From Nitrospira sp. (GTDB lineage: Bacteria; Nitrospirota; Nitrospiria; Nitrospirales; Nitrospiraceae): a DNA stretch of 64,000 bases. The position numbers were made by a program, and so were the translations under genes. The stretch covers positions 1 to 64,000 of the forward strand of contig JAFEBL010000010.1 in the NCBI GenBank assembly GCA_018242665.1, read 5' to 3'. Shown one piece after another: positions 3,571-50,450 of the stretch (position 1 is its first letter; each line of letters opens with the position of its first letter). The notes under the pieces are model-generated. The model ran no database searches, was not told the DNA's origin, and saw only the letters and a list, made by a program, of their open reading frames with translations.

Positions 3571-6312
3571 ATGTCCACCCCACAACTCGATAAAACCTAC
3601 AATCCACACGACGTCGAAAACCGCTGGTATCAGCGCTGGATCGACGCCGGCCTGTTTCACGCCGACCCGGCCCATCGCGGGCAGCCCTACTCCATGGTGA
3701 TCCCTCCGCCAAATGTCACGGGATCTCTGCATGTGGGCCATGCCTTGAACAACACCCTGCAAGATATCCTGATCCGCTGGCGCAGGATGCAAGGGCGTAA
3801 TGTGCTCTGGATGCCCGGGACGGATCATGCCGGTATTGCGACGCAAAATGTCGTCGAGCGGCAACTGCAAGCCGAAGGCACATCGCGGGAAACGCTGGGT
3901 CGAGAGGCGTTCCTCACGCGCGTGTGGCAGTGGAAAGAGAAATCAGGCGGCACGATCATCGGTCAGCTCAAGAAACTCGGAGCCTCCTGCGATTGGGAGC
4001 GGGAACGGTTTACGATGGATCCCGGTCTCTCGGAGGCGGTCCGTGAGGTCTTCGTTCGTTTACATCAGGACGGACTCCTCTATCGCGGTGAACGATTGAT
4101 CAACTGGTGCCCGCGCTGCCTCACCGCGTTATCCGACATCGAAGTCGAACACGAAGAGGCGACCGGAAAGCTCTACACAATTCGCTATCATCTGGTGGAT
4201 GATCCGACACAATTTCTGCTGGTGGCGACCACGCGCCCAGAAACCCTGTTTGGCGACACGGCGGTAGCGGTGCACCCTGAAGATGAACGCTTCCGGCATC
4301 TGATCGGCAAACAAGTCCGGTTACCACTCACGAGCCGCACGATCCCGATCGTCGGCGATGCGATCCTCGTCGATCGCCAATTCGGCACCGGCGCCGTCAA
4401 AATTACGCCCGCCCACGACTTCAACGACTTCGAAGCGGGTGAGCGGCACGCACTGAAACGGATCAAGATCCTCGATCTCCATGCCCACCTTCGGTTGGCC
4501 GGCTCGCTGGCCGATCCGGCCGTGGCGGAGGCAGTCGAGAATCTTCCTGTCGCGAAGGCGCGCCCCAAGATCGAACAACTCCTCATCGATCAGGGCTTCC
4601 TCGAAAAATCCGAGCCCCACAAGATGGCGCTGGGTAAATGTTATCGCTGCAAGACGGTGGTCGAACCCTTCTTGTCCGATCAGTGGTTCGTGAAGATCAA
4701 GCCGTTGGCCGAACCGGCGATCCAGGTCGTCGAAGACGGTCGCGTCAGGATCATCCCTGAAGCCTGGAAGAACAACTATCTCGGCTGGATGCGGGACATC
4801 AAAGACTGGTGCGTCTCGCGGCAGATTTGGTGGGGACATCAGATTCCTGCCTGGTACTGCGAAACCTGTTCCGGCACGCCCTTCTTACGGCGCAGTTCGG
4901 ATGGTGCGCCGCTTATCCCGTCGGACGCCGTGGCGATCGTGGCGAAGACCAAGCCGGACGCCTGCCCGCAGGGCCACCGCGATGCGCTCGTACAAGATCC
5001 CGATGTGCTGGACACCTGGTTCTCCTCCGCTCTCTGGCCCTTCTCCACCCTGGGATGGCCCAAGCAGACGCCGGAGCTGAAGGTCTTTTATCCGACCTCC
5101 ACCCTCGTGACCGGGCTCGACATTCTCTTCTTCTGGGTCGCGCGCATGATCATGATGGGCTTGAAGTTCATGGGCGATGTGCCGTTCCGCGATGTGTACA
5201 TCCACGCGCTGGTTCGCGATGCCGAAGGCCAGAAGATGAGCAAGTCGAAGGGCAACGTGATCGATCCGCTGCATGTGATGGAGCAATACGGCACCGACGC
5301 GCTGCGCTTCACGTTGGCGGCCATGGCCTCCCCCGGGCGCGACGTGAAACTGGCTGAGGAACGCATCGAGGGCTACCGGAACTTTACGAACAAAATCTGG
5401 AACGCGGCGCGATTTCTGCTCATGCACCTGGACGGGGAACGAACCGACATCCCGCCGGCGCAACGGTCGTTTCCTGATCGCTGGATTCTGAGTCGGCTGA
5501 ATGCCGCCATCAGCACCGTCACGCAGGAGTTGGAGGAGTATCGATTCGACCGCGCCTCCAGCGCGGTGTATCAATTCATCTGGCACGAGTACTGCGACAA
5601 GTACATTGAGATGGTGAAGCCTGCGCTCAAGGATCCGAATTCCGAGCAGGCAAAGAGCACGCGGCACACGTTGGCCGAGACGTACGAGACCATGATGCGG
5701 TTGCTGCATCCGTTCATGCCGTTCATTACGGAGGAAATCTGGCAGACGCTGCCGCATGAAGGCACCAGCATCGTCCGCCAGTCCTTTCCGACCACCAGAA
5801 CGGATTGGGAGTCGCAAGAAGTCGAGCAGGAGTTCGCCCTGTTGGAAGAATGTCGGGCCTTGATGAACCAGGAACGCGCGATCCTCGGGCATTCGGCAGG
5901 CAAACGCCTGCATTTCAAGGTGCACGGCAAAACCGACGTCGCTCATTCCACCTTCGAAAAACACAAAGACTTGATCGAATACATGGAGAATGTGGAGCAC
6001 CTCTCGATTAGCGGGAGCGCCGACATCGCTGCGCCACACCTGCTCACGTTGACGAGCGGCTCGACCGACGTCGTGACGAGCATGGAAGGAGCCGACCTTC
6101 AGAAAGCGAAGGACAACGTGACCAAGCAAATGGCCGGGCTGCAAAAAGAAGTCGCGCGCACCCAACAAAAATTGGGCAATCCCGACTTTGTGGCCAAGGC
6201 GCCGCCCGAGGTTCTGACCGAGCACCATGAGCGGCTTGCTCGTGAATCGCGCATGATCGCGTTACTGCAACAGGCGCTGAGCCAGATCACCCTTGAACAG
6301 ACACCTCATTAA
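3571..6312 (+). CDS. valS: Valyl-tRNA synthetase
   Basis: A 913-residue class Ia aminoacyl-tRNA synthetase that charges tRNA-Val. The HIGH signature is HVGH at residues 54-57 and the KMSKS loop is at 555-559. Between them lies the CP1 editing domain with TTRPETLFGDTAVAV and GTGAVKITPAHD, which hydrolyses mischarged Thr-tRNA. The C-terminal 70 residues, from about LQKAKDNVTKQM, form the coiled coil that is characteristic of bacterial ValRS. Length is normal. The 3' end overlaps the likely TTG start of nadC by 20 bases, so valS-nadC-birA look like one transcript with coaX close behind. Confidence 0.97.
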   Translation: MSTPQLDKTYNPHDVENRWYQRWIDAGLFHADPAHRGQPYSMVIPPPNVTGSLHVGHALNNTLQDILIRWRRMQGRNVLWMPGTDHAGIATQNVVERQLQAEGTSRETLGREAFLTRVWQWKEKSGGTIIGQLKKLGASCDWERERFTMDPGLSEAVREVFVRLHQDGLLYRGERLINWCPRCLTALSDIEVEHEEATGKLYTIRYHLVDDPTQFLLVATTRPETLFGDTAVAVHPEDERFRHLIGKQVRLPLTSRTIPIVGDAILVDRQFGTGAVKITPAHDFNDFEAGERHALKRIKILDLHAHLRLAGSLADPAVAEAVENLPVAKARPKIEQLLIDQGFLEKSEPHKMALGKCYRCKTVVEPFLSDQWFVKIKPLAEPAIQVVEDGRVRIIPEAWKNNYLGWMRDIKDWCVSRQIWWGHQIPAWYCETCSGTPFLRRSSDGAPLIPSDAVAIVAKTKPDACPQGHRDALVQDPDVLDTWFSSALWPFSTLGWPKQTPELKVFYPTSTLVTGLDILFFWVARMIMMGLKFMGDVPFRDVYIHALVRDAEGQKMSKSKGNVIDPLHVMEQYGTDALRFTLAAMASPGRDVKLAEERIEGYRNFTNKIWNAARFLLMHLDGERTDIPPAQRSFPDRWILSRLNAAISTVTQELEEYRFDRASSAVYQFIWHEYCDKYIEMVKPALKDPNSEQAKSTRHTLAETYETMMRLLHPFMPFITEEIWQTLPHEGTSIVRQSFPTTRTDWESQEVEQEFALLEECRALMNQERAILGHSAGKRLHFKVHGKTDVAHSTFEKHKDLIEYMENVEHLSISGSADIAAPHLLTLTSGSTDVVTSMEGADLQKAKDNVTKQMAGLQKEVARTQQKLGNPDFVAKAPPEVLTEHHERLARESRMIALLQQALSQITLEQTPH

Positions 6313-42322: not shown

Positions 42323-43180
42323 TCATGCACGATGCGGAATCCCCATGAACGCGGCCAGGAGCCGGTCTTGCACACGATCAGGCAAGATCCGCTTCAGTAA
42401 AGCTCTGAACCGTGCATCTTTGCCGACGAGGTATCGCGTCCGAGGACGCGAAGCCGTTAAGGCGCGAGCGACCACTGCTGCCACCGCATCCGCAGGAATC
42501 GCACGTGCGGCAGCCCCGGCCATGACCTCCTGCAACCGGCTCAAAGGTTGCGCATACAGCGCGAGTGACTCCGGCGCGACTCCACCGAGGGTGCGCGTCG
42601 CGGACATTGTCGCTCGCTGCCAGATTTGGGACTGGATCGCCCCAGGTTCCACCAGAGAGACCTCGATGCCCCAGGGCGCCAATTCCAATCGCAGCGCATC
42701 ACTCATCGCTTCCAGCGCAAATTTCGATCCGCAATAGGCGCCAAGAAAGGGTGTGGCGGCCAACCCGGCAATCGAACTGATGTTCACGATACGGCCCCGC
42801 GCCAAGCGCAATGAGGGCAGCAGCGCCTGGGTGACGGCCAACGCGCCGATGACGTTGACCTCGAATTGTGTGCGCACCTCGGCAAGCGGCAACAGTTCCA
42901 GCGGCCCGGCGACGGAGATGCCCGCATTATTGACGAGCGCCGCCAGACCCGATTTGAGAGTGGCGTCTGCAACGATTCGTCTCGCTTCGGCAATGGAGCC
43001 GGGATTTGTCACGTCCAGCAACAGGGGGCGAAGGCGCGGCGAGGCGGCCTGAACTAAGGCATCCCCATCCGTTGTACTTCGCACGCCTGCCCAAACCGTG
43101 AAGCCCAAGCGATCGAGCTGTCGCGCACAAGCCGCTCCAATTCCTGATGATGCGCCGGTGATGACCACTGCTCCCCGCAC
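42323..43180 (-). CDS. Short-chain dehydrogenase/reductase
   Basis: A 285-residue SDR. The NAD(P) site is TGASSGIG, with NNAG in ALVNNAGIS, the catalytic Ser-Tyr-Lys in SSIAGLAATPFLGAYCGSK, and PG in SLVEPGAIQS. The GTG at 43178-43180 is chosen because AGGAGG lies 7 bases upstream and the Rossmann motif follows within ten residues; an ATG at 43213 would add 11 residues. Substrate unknown. Confidence 0.85.
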   Translation of the reverse strand: MRGAVVITGASSGIGAACARQLDRLGFTVWAGVRSTTDGDALVQAASPRLRPLLLDVTNPGSIAEARRIVADATLKSGLAALVNNAGISVAGPLELLPLAEVRTQFEVNVIGALAVTQALLPSLRLARGRIVNISSIAGLAATPFLGAYCGSKFALEAMSDALRLELAPWGIEVSLVEPGAIQSQIWQRATMSATRTLGGVAPESLALYAQPLSRLQEVMAGAAARAIPADAVAAVVARALTASRPRTRYLVGKDARFRALLKRILPDRVQDRLLAAFMGIPHRA

Positions 43181-43482
43181 GGAGTGCCCTCCTGCATCTC
43201 TTCCATGTTCCATCGAGCACCGCTCCGGGACTTGTTTCATGTCGATCCAATTCCCGGGTGGCGGGCGCATCAGATTAGCATGCGCGCGGGTTCGGAGACA
43301 TCAAGCTCCGACGGATCATCCCTTCACGCAATTCAGTAGGGAATTCCCGGAGCCGCCGCAAGAGTTCAACATTTCCGACTGTTTGCTGCGTTCGTCGCAA
43401 GGATCTCTCGCGCGAGTCAGGCCGCAACTCCGTTTCCCTCCGGCTGATTTGACAATCGACCATCCTCATCTAGACTTGACTT
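43181..43482. other. Divergent intergenic region between the SDR and S16-protease genes
   Basis: Contains the good promoter at 43449-43476 for the protease gene. The remainder shows no gene, repeat or hairpin that I could support. Confidence 0.4.
43449..43476 (+). promoter_or_regulatory. Promoter of the secreted S16-protease gene
   Basis: A perfect TTGACA (43449-43454), 16-base spacer, TAGACT (43471-43476). The ATG at 43483 is at the expected transcription start, with no ribosome site. Confidence 0.5.
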
Positions 43483-44166
43483 ATGCCCATTCATCGAATG
43501 TTTTCCAGAAGCGGCACAGTGCCTTCCACACTCAGCTTCGTGCTGGCCTCAGTGCTTGGCTCCCTCTTGTGCCTGCCTTCGGCTGCCCTTGCCGGGAGAA
43601 CACTCGTCGTACCCATCTCCGTTGCGACCTACACCGACGACCAACCGGGTTTCCCGACTTTCGTCATGAAATGGGATGAAGGTCTTCAACCAGACCCCTT
43701 GTCGTTGAAGTGGGGACGCAGTCAAGTTCCTGTCCGAGGCACCGGGATGCGCGCCCTTCAGCACGCGTTCCAATTTGCGGTACACCGGCTCGCCCCGTCC
43801 CTGCACCCGACCGGAACCGTCTCATTGTACGCGACGTTTTCAGGGCCGCTCAGTATGGAGGGATCGACGGCGGAAGCCGCGCTGGCCATCGGGTTTCTGG
43901 CCTTGTTGAACGACGACCATCTGAAGCAGGACATTACGATCACCGGGACCTTGGAACGTGACGGCCGAATCGGACAGGTGAGTCAGATTGCAGAAAAAAC
44001 AACGGCTGCGGCGCTTGCGGGATATCACGTACTGCTGGTGCCGCGAGGTCAATTCTACGCGCCTCGCATCAACAGAGTCAGTTTGACACTGGAGTCACAG
44101 GTGTTGGTCCGCGAAGTGGACACGATTGAAGAAGCCTACGAAATCATGACGGGCCGAAAACTCTAG
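43483..44166 (+). CDS. Secreted Lon-type (S16) serine protease domain without ATPase
   Basis: A 227-residue protein with a signal peptide (VLASVLGSLLCLPSAALAG). The mature part matches the Lon proteolytic domain. The catalytic Ser128 is in MEGSTAEAALAIG and Lys172 in QIAEKTTAA, 44 residues apart, as in Lon (Ser679/Lys722). ITGTLERDGRIGQVSQ replaces Lon's ITGEV-type segment, and YHVLLVPRGQ follows. No AAA+ module or LonN domain is present. The mature enzyme should be periplasmic or extracellular and ATP-independent. It is convergent with the CHAT operon. Confidence 0.8.
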   Translation: MPIHRMFSRSGTVPSTLSFVLASVLGSLLCLPSAALAGRTLVVPISVATYTDDQPGFPTFVMKWDEGLQPDPLSLKWGRSQVPVRGTGMRALQHAFQFAVHRLAPSLHPTGTVSLYATFSGPLSMEGSTAEAALAIGFLALLNDDHLKQDITITGTLERDGRIGQVSQIAEKTTAAALAGYHVLLVPRGQFYAPRINRVSLTLESQVLVREVDTIEEAYEIMTGRKL

Positions 44167-44255: not shown

Positions 44256-46727
44256 TCACATCCAATTGTTGATGAGGAGAAATGCCGCCCAGTAATTCGG
44301 GTGCGCATGCCCGCGCTGAGAAAGAATTTTTTGCTGTGCGCGCTGCAGGGCCACGGCCTTTGAAATCGCGGGGTCCTGCAGTTGCCGGTAAAATTCCGAC
44401 ACGAGTTCCGTGGTCGTTTCATCATCCGACGTCCACAAACTCGCCAACGCGGTCCGCGCCCCCGTCTTCACGGCCACACCGGTCAACCCGAGCGCTGCAC
44501 GATCATCCTCCGCGGCAATTTCGCACGAGCTGAGTGTCAACAGATCGAGCGGCTGCTGCCGGTATTGCTGAAGCCCCACCAGCTGCGACAACCGGTCCAT
44601 CGTAATCTTGCCGTCATGGGCCAGCACAAACGAATCCCGCGCCTCAGTGCCGACAACCGTGTGGGAGGCCACATGGATGATTCCCAGTCCCTGATCCTTG
44701 ATCTCCTCTTCCAACGCCGGCGAGGAAAACTGCTTGTTCATCAGCAGCTTCCCACCATACATCGTTCGGATCGCCTGCACTTCGGTCTCCGCGTATCGCG
44801 GCGCAGCCTGGCCATCGACCGACTCCGTCAAACCGACCGACAGCAGACTGCCCTTGCGCCGTTGAGCAGGGCTCATATCGGTCAGGGCCAGACTCGGCGT
44901 GACCGCCACCGCGAGTGAATCCACCAGAAAATGCCGGCCATCATGGAGGGCCCCCATCGGAATGGTCCTGAGTGATCCGTCAGCGACCATCACGAGCGTA
45001 TGGACACCAGCCCCTTGCAAGTCCTGCTGAATCGGCGACACCAGCCACCCGTGCAGCGTCTGCGCCGAAGACAGGTAATTTTGGGATTGCGCATCCTGAA
45101 TCTGCCGCCTGAACGACCGGATTTCCTTCGTCAGCTTGTCTCCCGTGACGGGAACCCGGACTTGCTTGAGTCCATTGGCGGTCTCCAGGAGCAATTCCAG
45201 CCGATCAGGGAACGAGATCGGATAGACCACCGCCGTGCCGGGCGTCAACGCGCCTGCGCCTCGTTGACTTGCCACAGTGGCGACACAATCGTCTTGGAAA
45301 TAATCCTGCAGCTCGGCCGCCCGCGACACTTCGATCGTCTCTTTGACCTTTACCAGCAACTGGTCATTTTGCTCTGGCGTCTTCGCCGCGGCCGCTCTCC
45401 GTAGCAAGACATCCTCATATTCCGCAAACAATGGGGCGACGGACTCGTAGTAGGAATGATGCCGTCCCTGATAGCCGACGGAATACTCATAGTGAATGGG
45501 CTTCAACAATGTCACGGCCCGCTGATACGCACCCAGGGCCTCGTCTTCTTTGCCCTCCGCACGTAACAACCTCGCGGTTTGCCATTGCCAACGATAGAGC
45601 GATTCCGGCGCATTCACCTTTTGAGCGGCAAACGTGGCCTTGCGCGAGTATTCCAGCGCCTCGGGATTGCGGTGTTCCTGCTCCCGCAACCCGCCGAGAT
45701 ATCCCCAAGCATAGGATTGCCCGCGCGCATCGCCGGTGCGTCCAGCGACTTCCCCGGCTTCGGTGAAGGCATCCGCCGATTGTCGCAAGAGGCCGGCTCC
45801 AGCGCCGACAGAAGCCACGGCCTCCGTCGCGCGGCCCTTCCCACCGTCCGATTTCTTTGCTGTCCCGGACTTCCCGGTCGTGGCGGCAAACAACTCCTGG
45901 TACCCCAGGCCGATGTTCAGCAACCCGGCTGTTTTCGCATGACCGTCCCCCAACGATCGCACCTCCGACGAGGCTTGATCCAAGTGGCGATGCGCTTCAT
46001 TCAGTTGTTGGTTTTGGAGCAAGGCCATCGCGCCATTGATCTGCGCCGTCGCCGCCAGGGCCTGCTGCTTGGTCTCAGCGGCAAGCGTCCGGCTTTCCGC
46101 ATACACGTCGATGGCTTCGGCATACTGCCGTCGCGCCGTCAGCGCGTTACCCAGATCATTTAACACTCCGGCGATCAGGACAGGTTTCTTCTCTTCCCGC
46201 GCCAGCGTCAAGGCTTTGGTCAAATGTTCGGTCGCTGGTTCATCTTTTCCGAGCATATGAAAGGTATTGCCGAGCTGGGCGAGAATGGTGGCTGTGAGAC
46301 TCCGTTCACCAGTCTGTTCCGACAATTTGAGTGCCGCTTGCAACGTCCCCTGTGCACGACGGATCTGCCCCTCCTGCTGAAGCGCATGCGCGACATTGAT
46401 CAACGCCTGAGATTGCTCTTTGGCCTGCCCATTTTCTTCATACCCGCGCGCGGCATTCATCCAATGCGCGGCAGCCTGGGCAAAGGCTCCCTGCTGAAAC
46501 TGCGTCGTCCCCTGTCGCATCTCTTGCGCCGGCGTGCTCGACGCGCCCGAGCCCCCCAATAACTCCAAGGCCATCCCGTTCGCAGGCCAGGCGACTCCGC
46601 TCACCATCAGCAGCCCAAGGCTTAGTGCCGTCAACGGCAAGGAACGCGCGCCTCGACCGGCCAAATCCGCAGGCCTGTCGCTTCGCTTCATGCCGTATCC
46701 AATGATCATGTTACGCTTCCTAGGCAT
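44256..46727 (-). CDS. Periplasmic TPR-CHAT caspase-like protease
   Basis: An 823-residue protein with a Sec signal (SLPLTALSLGLLMVSGVAWPA). Residues about 70-450 hold a series of tetratricopeptide repeats. The C-terminal ~300 residues are a CHAT domain, the caspase/separase-like peptidase. The dyad is intact: His689 in IIHVASHTVVG and Cys735 in LTLSSCEIAA, with the PMGALHDGRHFLV and TALASLWTSDD motifs. AAGGAGG is 5 bases before the ATG at 46725-46727. It is the last gene of an operon with a TpsA and a TpsB. It could process the secreted TpsA or act on it as cargo or effector. Confidence 0.88.
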   Translation of the reverse strand: MPRKRNMIIGYGMKRSDRPADLAGRGARSLPLTALSLGLLMVSGVAWPANGMALELLGGSGASSTPAQEMRQGTTQFQQGAFAQAAAHWMNAARGYEENGQAKEQSQALINVAHALQQEGQIRRAQGTLQAALKLSEQTGERSLTATILAQLGNTFHMLGKDEPATEHLTKALTLAREEKKPVLIAGVLNDLGNALTARRQYAEAIDVYAESRTLAAETKQQALAATAQINGAMALLQNQQLNEAHRHLDQASSEVRSLGDGHAKTAGLLNIGLGYQELFAATTGKSGTAKKSDGGKGRATEAVASVGAGAGLLRQSADAFTEAGEVAGRTGDARGQSYAWGYLGGLREQEHRNPEALEYSRKATFAAQKVNAPESLYRWQWQTARLLRAEGKEDEALGAYQRAVTLLKPIHYEYSVGYQGRHHSYYESVAPLFAEYEDVLLRRAAAAKTPEQNDQLLVKVKETIEVSRAAELQDYFQDDCVATVASQRGAGALTPGTAVVYPISFPDRLELLLETANGLKQVRVPVTGDKLTKEIRSFRRQIQDAQSQNYLSSAQTLHGWLVSPIQQDLQGAGVHTLVMVADGSLRTIPMGALHDGRHFLVDSLAVAVTPSLALTDMSPAQRRKGSLLSVGLTESVDGQAAPRYAETEVQAIRTMYGGKLLMNKQFSSPALEEEIKDQGLGIIHVASHTVVGTEARDSFVLAHDGKITMDRLSQLVGLQQYRQQPLDLLTLSSCEIAAEDDRAALGLTGVAVKTGARTALASLWTSDDETTTELVSEFYRQLQDPAISKAVALQRAQQKILSQRGHAHPNYWAAFLLINNWM

Positions 46728-46745: not shown

Positions 46746-48023
46746 CTAGCACCCCTGCCATGATTCCATCAATTGTGCGGTCGTCTGACCCTGGATTCGT
46801 GCCGCTGGGGCTGCCGGAGTGCCGGGCTCGCCATCGCCGCCAATCTCCTCCAGGACAACAGGCGCTGGAAGGGACCGGCCAGGCTGTGCCGGCGTCACAT
46901 CACGCGAGGCTTGCACCAGGCTGCTGAACGCGCCGTCTTTGCGCGCCGCGCACCGACTGGTCAAGAGCGGGGCCGGTGGAGCCGGGGCCTCCTGAGGCAG
47001 CACCATGACTGCGCGATTCAAGAATGCGACCGGCTCGACAGGATTCGCCTGATTGACGCTGGCCGCATTTGCGGTGGCCAAAGGAGGAAGTCCCCCAAGA
47101 TTCACTCCTACCACTTGGAGTTGCGTGACGAGTTGCGTCCCAGGATTCGTCGTGGTGTTGAGCTGCGCACCCGTCGGCACGGTGACATTCGGACTGACGT
47201 CGATCTCGGCGGGAATCACGCCGCCGCCCCCGGCGACGATCAACGTTCCAGGTAACGCTTGAATCTGTCCGTTGCCCGTCGACCCGGAAAACGGATTGCC
47301 GGCAAAGGCCTGCGTGCTCATTTCTCCAGCCGAGCTCGTACTGCCAAGGATGACGCGTTGGGCGCTGATCTTCGAGCCGTTGATCTGAATACCGCCACCC
47401 ATCAAGCCAAGGACCGCTCCGGTCTGCAGGACGGTCGAGGAGGATGAGAGCACGATCGAACCATAGGGCCCCTGGCCCAAAAATCCAAAGGCCACCGGAG
47501 AGCCTACCGAGAGGGTCGAGTCGAAGGCCAGCAGGCCCGTGTTCGCCGTGAAGATGCCGCCATCGCTCAATCGCAATTGCTGTGCGGTGCTGAAGTAGGC
47601 GGATCCGGATACATTCAAGTGGGCGGTGGGACCGAACACGATTCCGGACGGATTGATGAAGAACAAATTCGCATTGAGCGCTTGAACCGTGCCGTTGATG
47701 TTGGAGGGTGATCCTCCGATCACTCGGCTAATGACATTGGATACGCCCCCGGGATTCACGAACGCCGCCACATCTCCCGTGCCGACGGAGAATTGATTAA
47801 AGCTGTGAAAGAGGTTGGGGCCGCCTGCCGGTCTCGTTCCTCCGGTAATGTTGGTCGTGTTGCCGGATGTGCTCAGAGTGGTGCCGAGCCCCCCGGGTCC
47901 CGAAGGAGTGGCGACGATGTTCGTCGCCTGTCCGTAGGCCATCGACCCGGAAAAGCCCAGAAGCATCAGGGAGGCGAGAAACCCACGAACCAACAGCGGC
48001 GATCCTGCGGGGCGAGATAGCAT
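46746..48023 (-). CDS. Short TpsA: filamentous-haemagglutinin N-terminal (TPS) protein
   Basis: A 425-residue two-partner secretion exoprotein. After a signal peptide (FLASLMLLGFSGSMAYG) it has the TPS domain: GGPNLFHSFNQFSVGTGD, the NPSGIVFG form of the NPNG motif and several beta-helix rungs. The long repeat region that usually makes these proteins 700-1500 residues or more is missing. The C-terminal SRCAARKDGAFSSLV is the cysteine tail of cyanobacterial-type TpsA proteins, and the protein ends in a Cys. ATG at 48021-48023 is chosen for AGGAG 7 bases upstream. It lies 18 bases before the CHAT gene. Confidence 0.85.
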   Translation of the reverse strand: MLSRPAGSPLLVRGFLASLMLLGFSGSMAYGQATNIVATPSGPGGLGTTLSTSGNTTNITGGTRPAGGPNLFHSFNQFSVGTGDVAAFVNPGGVSNVISRVIGGSPSNINGTVQALNANLFFINPSGIVFGPTAHLNVSGSAYFSTAQQLRLSDGGIFTANTGLLAFDSTLSVGSPVAFGFLGQGPYGSIVLSSSSTVLQTGAVLGLMGGGIQINGSKISAQRVILGSTSSAGEMSTQAFAGNPFSGSTGNGQIQALPGTLIVAGGGGVIPAEIDVSPNVTVPTGAQLNTTTNPGTQLVTQLQVVGVNLGGLPPLATANAASVNQANPVEPVAFLNRAVMVLPQEAPAPPAPLLTSRCAARKDGAFSSLVQASRDVTPAQPGRSLPAPVVLEEIGGDGEPGTPAAPAARIQGQTTAQLMESWQGC

Positions 48024-48210
48024 GATGAATCTCCTCATGTGCGAAAAGAGGTCCCCTCTCTTACCCTAAACGGTGCACAACTTCAACCAGCACAGACCCT
48101 TCGTTCACGAATGGACAGAGCAACGCTCACGGCCCGATCGGCCCTGGACATCTATCCCTGACGCGCCAGGAATGCGCTCTGCCGCGCGCAACCAGCGAGG
48201 CCTATCTGTC

Positions 48211-50028
48211 TCAGAACGCCTCCACCACCAGTTGGAGATGGATGCCGTGATCCTGCAGGTTGTTGCGATCGGTGTCGTAGCGCTTCAGCTGTTTTCCGTA
48301 ATAGAGTTCAAAGTGACTCCCGCGCCAAAAATTCCAAATCACGCCAGCCCCAAGGCTCGCCAACGTTTTTGGAGGAGTCCCGGGAGTCTGGGCGGTGGTT
48401 TGCCAACCATGACCCAGGTCAAAAAACGGCGCGAGAAAGACTGAATCCACACCAGCCTTGGTCGTATAGACCGGCACCCGCGCCTCGATCGAGAGCATCG
48501 CAGCATTGTCACGAATCAGCGTAAACTCTCGATAGCCGCGGACGCTGTATCGGCCACCGACGGCAATCTGTTCGAGGGGGAACAGGTGATCGTTGGACAG
48601 TTGTACGACGCCCCGGCTGACCAATTGCGTCCGCCAGAGCGGAAGCTGGCGGATCCACTGGGCTTCGCCCAACCAGGAAAAGAAGCGCGCATCCGGCAAG
48701 TTCGGATCACCATTGGCCGTCGCTCCCATGGCGCCGATACCCACGGAGAGCCGTGAGAGTAGGGAGATCACCTGCTCGGCCGAACGATGCGCATACTCCT
48801 GACCGAAACGCAGCGCGGTCACGCGGAATTTCCCGTTCGGCGCGCCGGTGATGAGCTCAAATGGGTTCCCGCCCAGCGTGCTCTCATTCCTCGCATGTTC
48901 ACCCGTAAGGGAAAACGCCAACTCCTGGTCGGCCTTCCGGATCACAGGGTGTCTGACAGAGACACCGAAGATCTGAGCCTTGTTCTTGATATCCAATGAA
49001 TCAAATGGCGCCTCCTCGACGCCGAAATCAAACCGGCGATATTGCAGCGCGACGGTCGTATCGCGGGGGCCCACCGGGATTTCGTACTTGAAGTTCAGCA
49101 TCGGGTTGACGCCGGCCGAACGACCATATTGCAAACTCAGCGTATCGCCGAAGCCCAGCAGGTTCTGGTGCGCCAGCGTGACAAAGCCTTGCTCCGCACC
49201 GACGACGGGAGACTGATAGTTGTTGAATTCCAACCAGGCCTTGAGCGGGTTGGCTTCCTTCACCTTCACGTTGAGGGTATTCTCTCCAATCGTGGCGCCC
49301 GGCAACAATTCGGCATTGATCCGTTCGATTCGGGGATTGGCCTGCAGCACACGCAACCGTTCCTGGAGTGCTTCGACATGGAGCGGCGGGCCGGCCGCCA
49401 AATTGAGGCGGCTTTGAAAATACGAGGGCCGGAACCATTTCGTATCCTCGACGTTGACCTGCGTAATCTTCCCTTCGATGATTTGCATGGTCAGGGTGCC
49501 ATCGGCGACATCCTGCTCCGGAACCACGGCACCGGACGTCAAATAGCCATGATTGACGTAGTAGTACGTCAGCGCGAGACGCAAGGCCTCCAGGTCTTCA
49601 GCCGCCAGTTCACGATTCGTGTAGGGGGCGGTGATCTCCGAGAGTTGTTGCGCGGTGAAGGCGGTATTGCCGACCAGCCGGATATCCTTGACCATGATCT
49701 TGGGCCCCTTGGCCGCCCGATCGAGCGCGCCCGGGGGCGTGGGTGTCGGGAGGTCCAGCCCAGGGGGCTGGGCGGGAGGAGGCACAACAGGCAATTGAGG
49801 CGGCTTGGGCGGCAGCGGCCCGAGTTGCGAACCGGTCTGTGCATGAGCCGGCCCTCCCAGCAGGCCACACAGCATCCACGCCGTCAGCCCTGCCAAGATC
49901 GCGGGCCATCGACGCAAACCATTCCCTGGTTTCCCATGGCGGACTGATCTGCCGTTCATTGCCTGCACGACATCACTTAACCGGCTCTGTTCTGAGTCCT
50001 GCCCCATCAACGTCTTCTCACAAGCCAT
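48211..50028 (-). CDS. TpsB outer-membrane transporter (ShlB/FhaC/HecB family)
   Basis: A 605-residue Omp85-superfamily porin. A signal peptide is followed by a proline-rich stretch (PPKPPQLPVVPPPAQPPG), two POTRA domains (KDIRLVGNTAFTAQQLSE; then ELLPGATIGENTLNVKV), and a 16-strand barrel. The signature VRGYREF (with YSVRGY) is in loop L6 and the last strand ends LQLVVEAF. It exports the neighbouring TpsA across the outer membrane. GGAGG is 5 bases before ATG 50026-50028. First gene of the TpsB-TpsA-CHAT operon. Confidence 0.93.
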   Translation of the reverse strand: MACEKTLMGQDSEQSRLSDVVQAMNGRSVRHGKPGNGLRRWPAILAGLTAWMLCGLLGGPAHAQTGSQLGPLPPKPPQLPVVPPPAQPPGLDLPTPTPPGALDRAAKGPKIMVKDIRLVGNTAFTAQQLSEITAPYTNRELAAEDLEALRLALTYYYVNHGYLTSGAVVPEQDVADGTLTMQIIEGKITQVNVEDTKWFRPSYFQSRLNLAAGPPLHVEALQERLRVLQANPRIERINAELLPGATIGENTLNVKVKEANPLKAWLEFNNYQSPVVGAEQGFVTLAHQNLLGFGDTLSLQYGRSAGVNPMLNFKYEIPVGPRDTTVALQYRRFDFGVEEAPFDSLDIKNKAQIFGVSVRHPVIRKADQELAFSLTGEHARNESTLGGNPFELITGAPNGKFRVTALRFGQEYAHRSAEQVISLLSRLSVGIGAMGATANGDPNLPDARFFSWLGEAQWIRQLPLWRTQLVSRGVVQLSNDHLFPLEQIAVGGRYSVRGYREFTLIRDNAAMLSIEARVPVYTTKAGVDSVFLAPFFDLGHGWQTTAQTPGTPPKTLASLGAGVIWNFWRGSHFELYYGKQLKRYDTDRNNLQDHGIHLQLVVEAF

Positions 50029-50450
50029 CAAGGCCTCCCCTCTTTCTTGATGACGGGGCACGGAGATTTGTGAATCAGTGCCCGTAAAATCATCGGCTTT
50101 CGATATGTATTCTGAATCACACCGCTGCTGCGGTCTGCAACACGCACTCTTCAGAAACAACTCACAGTCCCGCAGCAGTCGTCGATCGGCCGAGGCGATA
50201 CGTAGCTGTTTGGAGAGTCCGCTCTGCGAAGGAATTGCTTATAACATGTCTCGAACCAAAATACTCCTGGGGCCAGGAAGTTTTTTGTTCGGCAGGAATG
50301 AAGGTGATTCAGGTTGGTACAGAGACGTCAGCGCCAAAAACGGTCCTGGTGGGAACACACATGAGCGCAGTGGTGGCGCATGGAACCTATTCCGTACCAT
50401 GCTGTGGCCTGACCGTCGGCCTACGTATTGTCCCATACCATACCGCCGTT
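50029..50450. other. Intergenic region between TpsB and the tryptophanase-like gene
   Basis: Of 422 bases, no gene was found. A short TCCTG/CAGGA hairpin with a following T-run on the + strand lies at about 50265-50287; it faces no known transcript. A clear TpsB promoter was not found. Confidence 0.4.

Follow-up and report, generated by a model that had tools for sequence, protein, structure and literature searches.

Genes and features of the locus

The window analysed here is a stretch of 64,000 nt of Nitrospira sp. DNA. It carries a gene for a stand-alone protein with the S16 (Lon protease domain) fold beside genes for a TPR-CHAT protein and for TpsA-like and TpsB-like proteins of two-partner secretion (TPS). 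The features of the locus are collected in Table 1.

Table 1. Features of the S16 gene and its neighbourhood (window positions)
Feature	Position	Strand	Remarks
Short-chain dehydrogenase (SDR)	42323..43270	-	syntenic on the 5′ side of S16 across the genus
Sigma-70-like promoter match TTGACA-16-TAGACT	43449..43476	+	consensus match only; just 5′ of the S16 ATG
S16 gene, for a secreted protein with a stand-alone Lon protease domain (S16 fold)	43483..44166	+	227 aa
Signal peptide	43483..43593	+	likely cleavage between ALA and G, after residue 37; by eye, no predictor
Ser128 codon	43864..43866	+	residue chosen in the sequence-only reading; unconserved; aligns with the Pro/Asp preceding the Lon nucleophile
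Thr129 codon	43867..43869	+	aligns with the Lon catalytic Ser
Thr154 codon	43942..43944	+	conserved Thr of the T-G motif, S16 active-site region
Lys172 codon	43996..43998	+	Lon catalytic Lys position; kept in 29/30 linked homologues
TPR-CHAT protein with signal peptide	44256..46727	-	clan CD His689 and Cys735 present; Gly after His is Thr
CHAT Cys735 codon	44523..44525
CHAT His689 codon	44661..44663
TpsA-like protein (TPS secretion domain)	46746..48038	-	Pfam
TpsB-like transporter (POTRA_2, ShlB)	48211..50160	-	Pfam

The S16 ORF is a real gene: intact copies were found in 28 genomes (one sequence with stop codons, L029, was left out of the intact set), and the mature domain has a dN/dS of ~0.08 (median 0.076). 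Such purifying selection indicates that a functional protein is retained, and a pseudogene status of the window copy is excluded.

The N terminus is a Sec-type signal peptide whose end we read by eye as MPIHRMFSRSGTVPSTLSFVLASVLGSLLCLPSAALA followed by GR; a hydrophobic N-terminal stretch is present in 30/30 CHAT-linked homologues. The chain consists of the ORF product and its signal peptide only, the Pfam search having detected neither an AAA+ module nor a PDZ domain; the N-terminal part of the protein belongs to the P domain. The ORF, signal peptide, S16 domain and missing ATPase proposed in the sequence-only reading are thus all borne out.

The stop codons of the S16 and CHAT genes, which are convergent, lie 89 bp apart. 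The promoter match suggests, as far as a consensus can, that the S16 gene is transcribed on its own. With its position on the strand opposite to TpsB-TpsA-CHAT, this places the S16 gene outside their operon; it lies next to the CHAT operon with its 3′ end facing CHAT, as had been noted, and is not a member of it. The promoter-like match (window 43449-43483) stops just 7 bases ahead of the annotated ATG, so the S16 mRNA may be leaderless or the start may be Met6.

Fold of the mature protein

Pfam Lon_C matched the S16 protein with an E-value of 4e-6 (26.9 bits vs a cut-off of 21.1). The AlphaFold2 model (residues 37-227, built from 33 sequences) had a mean pLDDT of 80 and a pTM of 0.83. Its top structural match was the P domain of Escherichia coli Lon (3wu6_F; Z 21.3, rmsd 2.7, 172 residues), followed by human, archaeal and BsLonBA Lon; the best solved structures were all Lon P domains, and domains of RadA and BrxL, which have the same fold, ranked later (Z about 17). 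By both measures the protein belongs to the Lon P-domain fold, and the extent of the structural matches implies that the entire mature chain is one P domain.

Position of the active-site residues

The sequence-only reading had taken Ser128 and Lys172, 44 residues apart, for a Lon catalytic dyad. In Lon, the Ser and Lys positions differ by 43 (PMC9569914), as in S679/K722, and the nucleophile lies within motifs PKDGPSA or [E/D]GDSA (PMC2605481). The corresponding motif in the window protein is EGSTAE, and the residue located 43 positions before Lys172 is Thr129. In an ungapped alignment to Lon structures, continuous from the motif through to Lys, the catalytic Ser coincides with Thr129; the spacing is 43 in all 86 intact relatives examined, and gap-free alignment to them puts Thr129 at the nucleophile as well. 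Because SepM, from another S16 branch, uses S235/K280 (PMC11197336), spacing alone is insufficient to define a dyad and the gap-free alignment decides. Ser128 falls on the Pro of PSAG and was ruled out as the nucleophile; among the 30 linked homologues its position varies (20 Ser, 6 Ala, 3 Thr and 1 Pro), and elsewhere it is mostly Pro.

The window protein thus has a Lys at the position of the Lon catalytic Lys and Thr at that of the catalytic Ser. Position 131, Gly in LonA, is occupied by Glu, and this residue changes jointly with Thr129 in the relatives having Asp or Gly at the nucleophile position.

Substitution of the nucleophile in CHAT-linked homologues

Among 30 CHAT-linked proteins the nucleophile position holds Thr in 28, Asp in one (L030) and Gly in one (L054); Thr129 is kept by all 28 intact orthologues from the same genus, and Asp and Gly occur in the two next relatives. 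Ser is present at this position in 86 of 88 unlinked relatives. One of the Thr-bearing proteins (L004) has His at the position of Lys172. With Ser absent throughout, the Ser-Lys dyad is broken in the whole linked clade, as it would be in non-peptidase S16 homologues.

In the phylogenetic tree, all linked proteins group in a single clade (100/100) that lies within the Ser-bearing sequences; its stem is long, at 1.37 changes per column, and marks a fast-diverged branch. Such nesting on a single stem indicates that the loss of Ser is derived and goes back to around one event.

All four ACN codons are used for Thr129 in the 28 sequences (ACG in 11, ACT in 8, ACC in 6 and ACA in 3), so Thr itself has been maintained. 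Still, equal invariance is found at 89 of 189 mature positions, and we did not accept the invariance of Thr129 alone as a proof of catalysis.

Linkage of S16 and CHAT genes

In 30/30 closest homologues (from 29 genomes of the same genus and one of another genus) CHAT adjoins S16 3′ to 3′, with a gap of 22-243 bp (median 89). SDR and NUDIX neighbours are likewise conserved at the linked loci, so the adjacency is partly plain synteny. A linkage that may go beyond synteny comes from one genome (G028), which has a second, SDR-free locus with TpsA-CHAT-S16 (L054). The association has a single origin, the strands are convergent, and S16 has been lost in several secondary loci: decayed remnants were found at CHAT loci of two genomes (G022 and G014), and S16 is absent from those of two others (G005 and G024). 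Together with the SDR-free locus, these cases indicate that S16 moved with CHAT at least once and is dispensable there; the TPS-CHAT system, in turn, can do without S16. Among the members of the substituted clade that were inspected, none was located away from CHAT. We found no description of TPS-CHAT-S16 loci in the literature searched.

The S16 remnants beside secondary TPS-CHAT genes include L073 (about 5721-5855) and L071 (160-348), from two Nitrospira genomes, one of them with an internal stop. A further candidate for a CHAT-linked remnant (L076) was ruled out as a frameshifted copy of the unlinked paralogue.

Unlinked secreted relatives

Besides two full Lon proteases, the 4.06 Mb genome of the window encodes one other secreted S16 protein (L051; G000:C1:22259-22840), which has an intact DGPSAG...K dyad. 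By eye, its neighbours are ScpA/ScpB-like and pentapeptide-repeat-like genes; this paralogue is a natural positive control.

Inspection of the flanks of Ser-bearing relatives (Nitrospirota, Chloroflexota and archaea, L051 included), done by tblastn only, often over 6-8 kb and with some contigs short, detected none of the window-type CHAT, TpsA or TpsB genes. Many other genera have CHAT genes in the 42-53% identity class, and their S16 relatives are unlinked. On the flanks inspected, linkage to CHAT was rejected as a property of secreted S16 proteins in general. The link to CHAT/TPS anticipated in the sequence-only reading is supported within the clade, where all 30 closest homologues are linked and a second SDR-free locus exists, and is absent from the wider secreted family, whose unlinked members are widespread; the catalytic pair was lost in exactly the CHAT-linked homologues. 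Both grounds on which that reading was to be refuted thus apply in part.

Two further groups were noted among the relatives. Nine Chloroflexota proteins (L120-L122, L124, L126, L127, L129, L130 and L134) represent a longer extracytoplasmic architecture of S16, with about 600-670 aa and an intact S16 motif; the signal at the start of several of them is lipoprotein-like. In Alkanophaga-type archaea (L145 and L149) the S16 proteins are small, begin with a hydrophobic segment and have the dyad intact.

Catalytic residues of the neighbouring CHAT proteins

Six of 30 distinct linked CHATs have a substitution at the catalytic His or Cys, vs 0 of 43 unlinked ones. The replacements are His to Arg (L018), His to Gln (L005, L023 and L024), Cys to Ser (L020) and, in the linked CHAT of G042, both His to Arg and Cys to Thr; they imply about five separate changes. 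The Fisher test compared retention in 23/28 linked with 43/43 unlinked CHATs (the count of 30 includes in addition G042 and L054, grouped there under other headings) and gave p 0.008, a value that is only a guide given that CHAT sequences are related. The His-Gly motif is characteristic of clan CD peptidases, and the residue following His is Gly in 43/43 unlinked CHATs; in the main linked clade it is Thr or Ser.

In another genus (L075), two TpsB-TpsA-CHAT units are arranged in tandem next to an S16 gene with Asp at the nucleophile position. The S16-adjacent CHAT has neither His nor Cys, and the other CHAT retains both.

Comparison with known S16 proteins

The window protein resembles the P domain of LonA and LonB (MEROPS S16) in whole fold (Z 21), Lys position, T-G motif and the spacing of 43. 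It differs from Lon in having a signal peptide and neither AAA+ nor N domain, in the change of Ser to Thr, and in Glu replacing Gly after SA. The unlinked secreted S16 proteins of Nitrospirota, such as L051, are of the same size, also carry a signal peptide and are about 33-44% identical to it, but have the intact dyad and are located away from CHAT/TPS.

The Lon-like domains of BrxL and RadA share the fold, but are cytoplasmic, fused to an ATPase and act on DNA; RadA is not known to keep the dyad. BrxL has no Ser-Lys dyad (PMC12839542). SepM and the PDZ-Lon protein YlbL have an S16 domain outside the cytoplasm and no ATPase, as does the window protein; SepM, however, is anchored in the membrane and combines a PDZ domain with a Ser/Lys dyad (PMC11197336), and of these features the window protein has only Lys. 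Stand-alone Lon_C proteins have been described (PMC2605481), and MEROPS S16 groups include members devoid of ATPase or of peptidase activity (PMC9569914). Thus, Lon_C proteins that stand alone, S16 proteases outside the cytoplasm (SepM) and Lon domains without peptidase function (BrxL) are already known; new here is the clade-wide change of Ser to Thr tied to a TPS-CHAT locus, with parallel erosion in the neighbouring CHAT.

Possible function of the S16 protein

With Thr instead of Ser at the cutting residue, the S16 protein is probably not a normal protease but one that has been retired or altered. We lean, with somewhat better than even confidence, towards an exported pseudoprotease with the Lon fold, or in any case a protein other than a standard serine protease, with a peptide- or partner-binding role at the TPS-CHAT locus. 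This reading draws on the nucleophile substitution throughout a clade nested on a long stem, the Lys to His change in L004, the loss of CHAT His or Cys at linked loci only, the constant adjacency with an SDR-free second locus, the purifying selection on the mature domain, and the known non-peptidase uses of the Lon fold (BrxL, PMC12839542; structural matches to BrxL and RadA). Counting against it are the invariant Thr129 with its four codons, the retained Lys172 and Thr154, and the decay or absence of S16 beside secondary CHAT genes. On this reading the protein, a stand-alone exported Lon-type P domain, descends from a family of secreted S16 proteins with an intact Ser/Lys dyad and lost its Ser nucleophile while the gene became fixed 3′ of the TPS-CHAT operon in Nitrospira. 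Most likely past standard serine-protease function, the protein would act in the periplasm and bind a polypeptide or partner through the conserved groove of the Lon fold; plausible partners would be TpsA, the TPR-CHAT protein or their substrates.

The ATP-independent periplasmic proteolysis proposed in the sequence-only reading finds no support in a clade in which the Ser nucleophile is missing throughout and one Thr-bearing member has exchanged Lys for His. In its original form, with Ser128 and Lys172 as a standard Lon-type dyad, the proposal is highly improbable: the Lon fold and the Lys are there, and the S235/K280 of SepM (PMC11197336) illustrates that S16 branches vary in spacing, but gap-free alignment with close relatives sets Ser128 at Pro, this Ser is found in just two-thirds of linked homologues, and every intact relative keeps the spacing of 43. 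A working ATP-independent periplasmic protease whose dyad is Thr129/Lys172 instead of Ser/Lys deserves more weight, though we consider it unlikely. The invariant Thr129 with its four codons, the retained Lys172 and Thr154, the exact Lon spacing and the low dN/dS make a Thr/Lys dyad conceivable; against it are Asp and Gly in the two nearest linked relatives, the Lys to His change in another, Glu131 at the adjacent LonA Gly and the restriction of reported S16 enzymes to A- and B-type Ser centres (PMC9569914). A secreted Thr/Lys Lon-type protease outside these types, recruited to a TPS-CHAT secretion locus, is accordingly an outcome to which we give a small chance.

Whether or not it cuts, the S16 protein might have no functional tie to its neighbours. 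Mere co-inheritance of S16 with the CHAT/TPS operon is a serious contender, if a little short of an even chance: convergent genes are not co-transcribed, SDR and NUDIX genes are conserved as well, a single origin leaves few independent cases, and secondary CHAT copies have S16 decayed or absent. Opposed to it are S16 genes or remnants accompanying CHAT in SDR-free second loci (L054, L073 and L071) and the observation that every member of the substituted clade inspected lay beside CHAT.

The S16 protein is a clear case of a secreted stand-alone Lon domain with the nucleophile changed once, and in no lineage but the one that became fixed next to a TPS-CHAT operon; the intact paralogue in the same genome serves as a control for it. 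The case also cautions against dyad calls made on spacing alone. With the neighbouring CHAT protease domain likewise drifting from its catalytic residues at the S16-linked locus, the S16/CHAT pair makes it testable whether protease folds may serve as non-catalytic partners in two-partner secretion or whether Lon domains may run on threonine.
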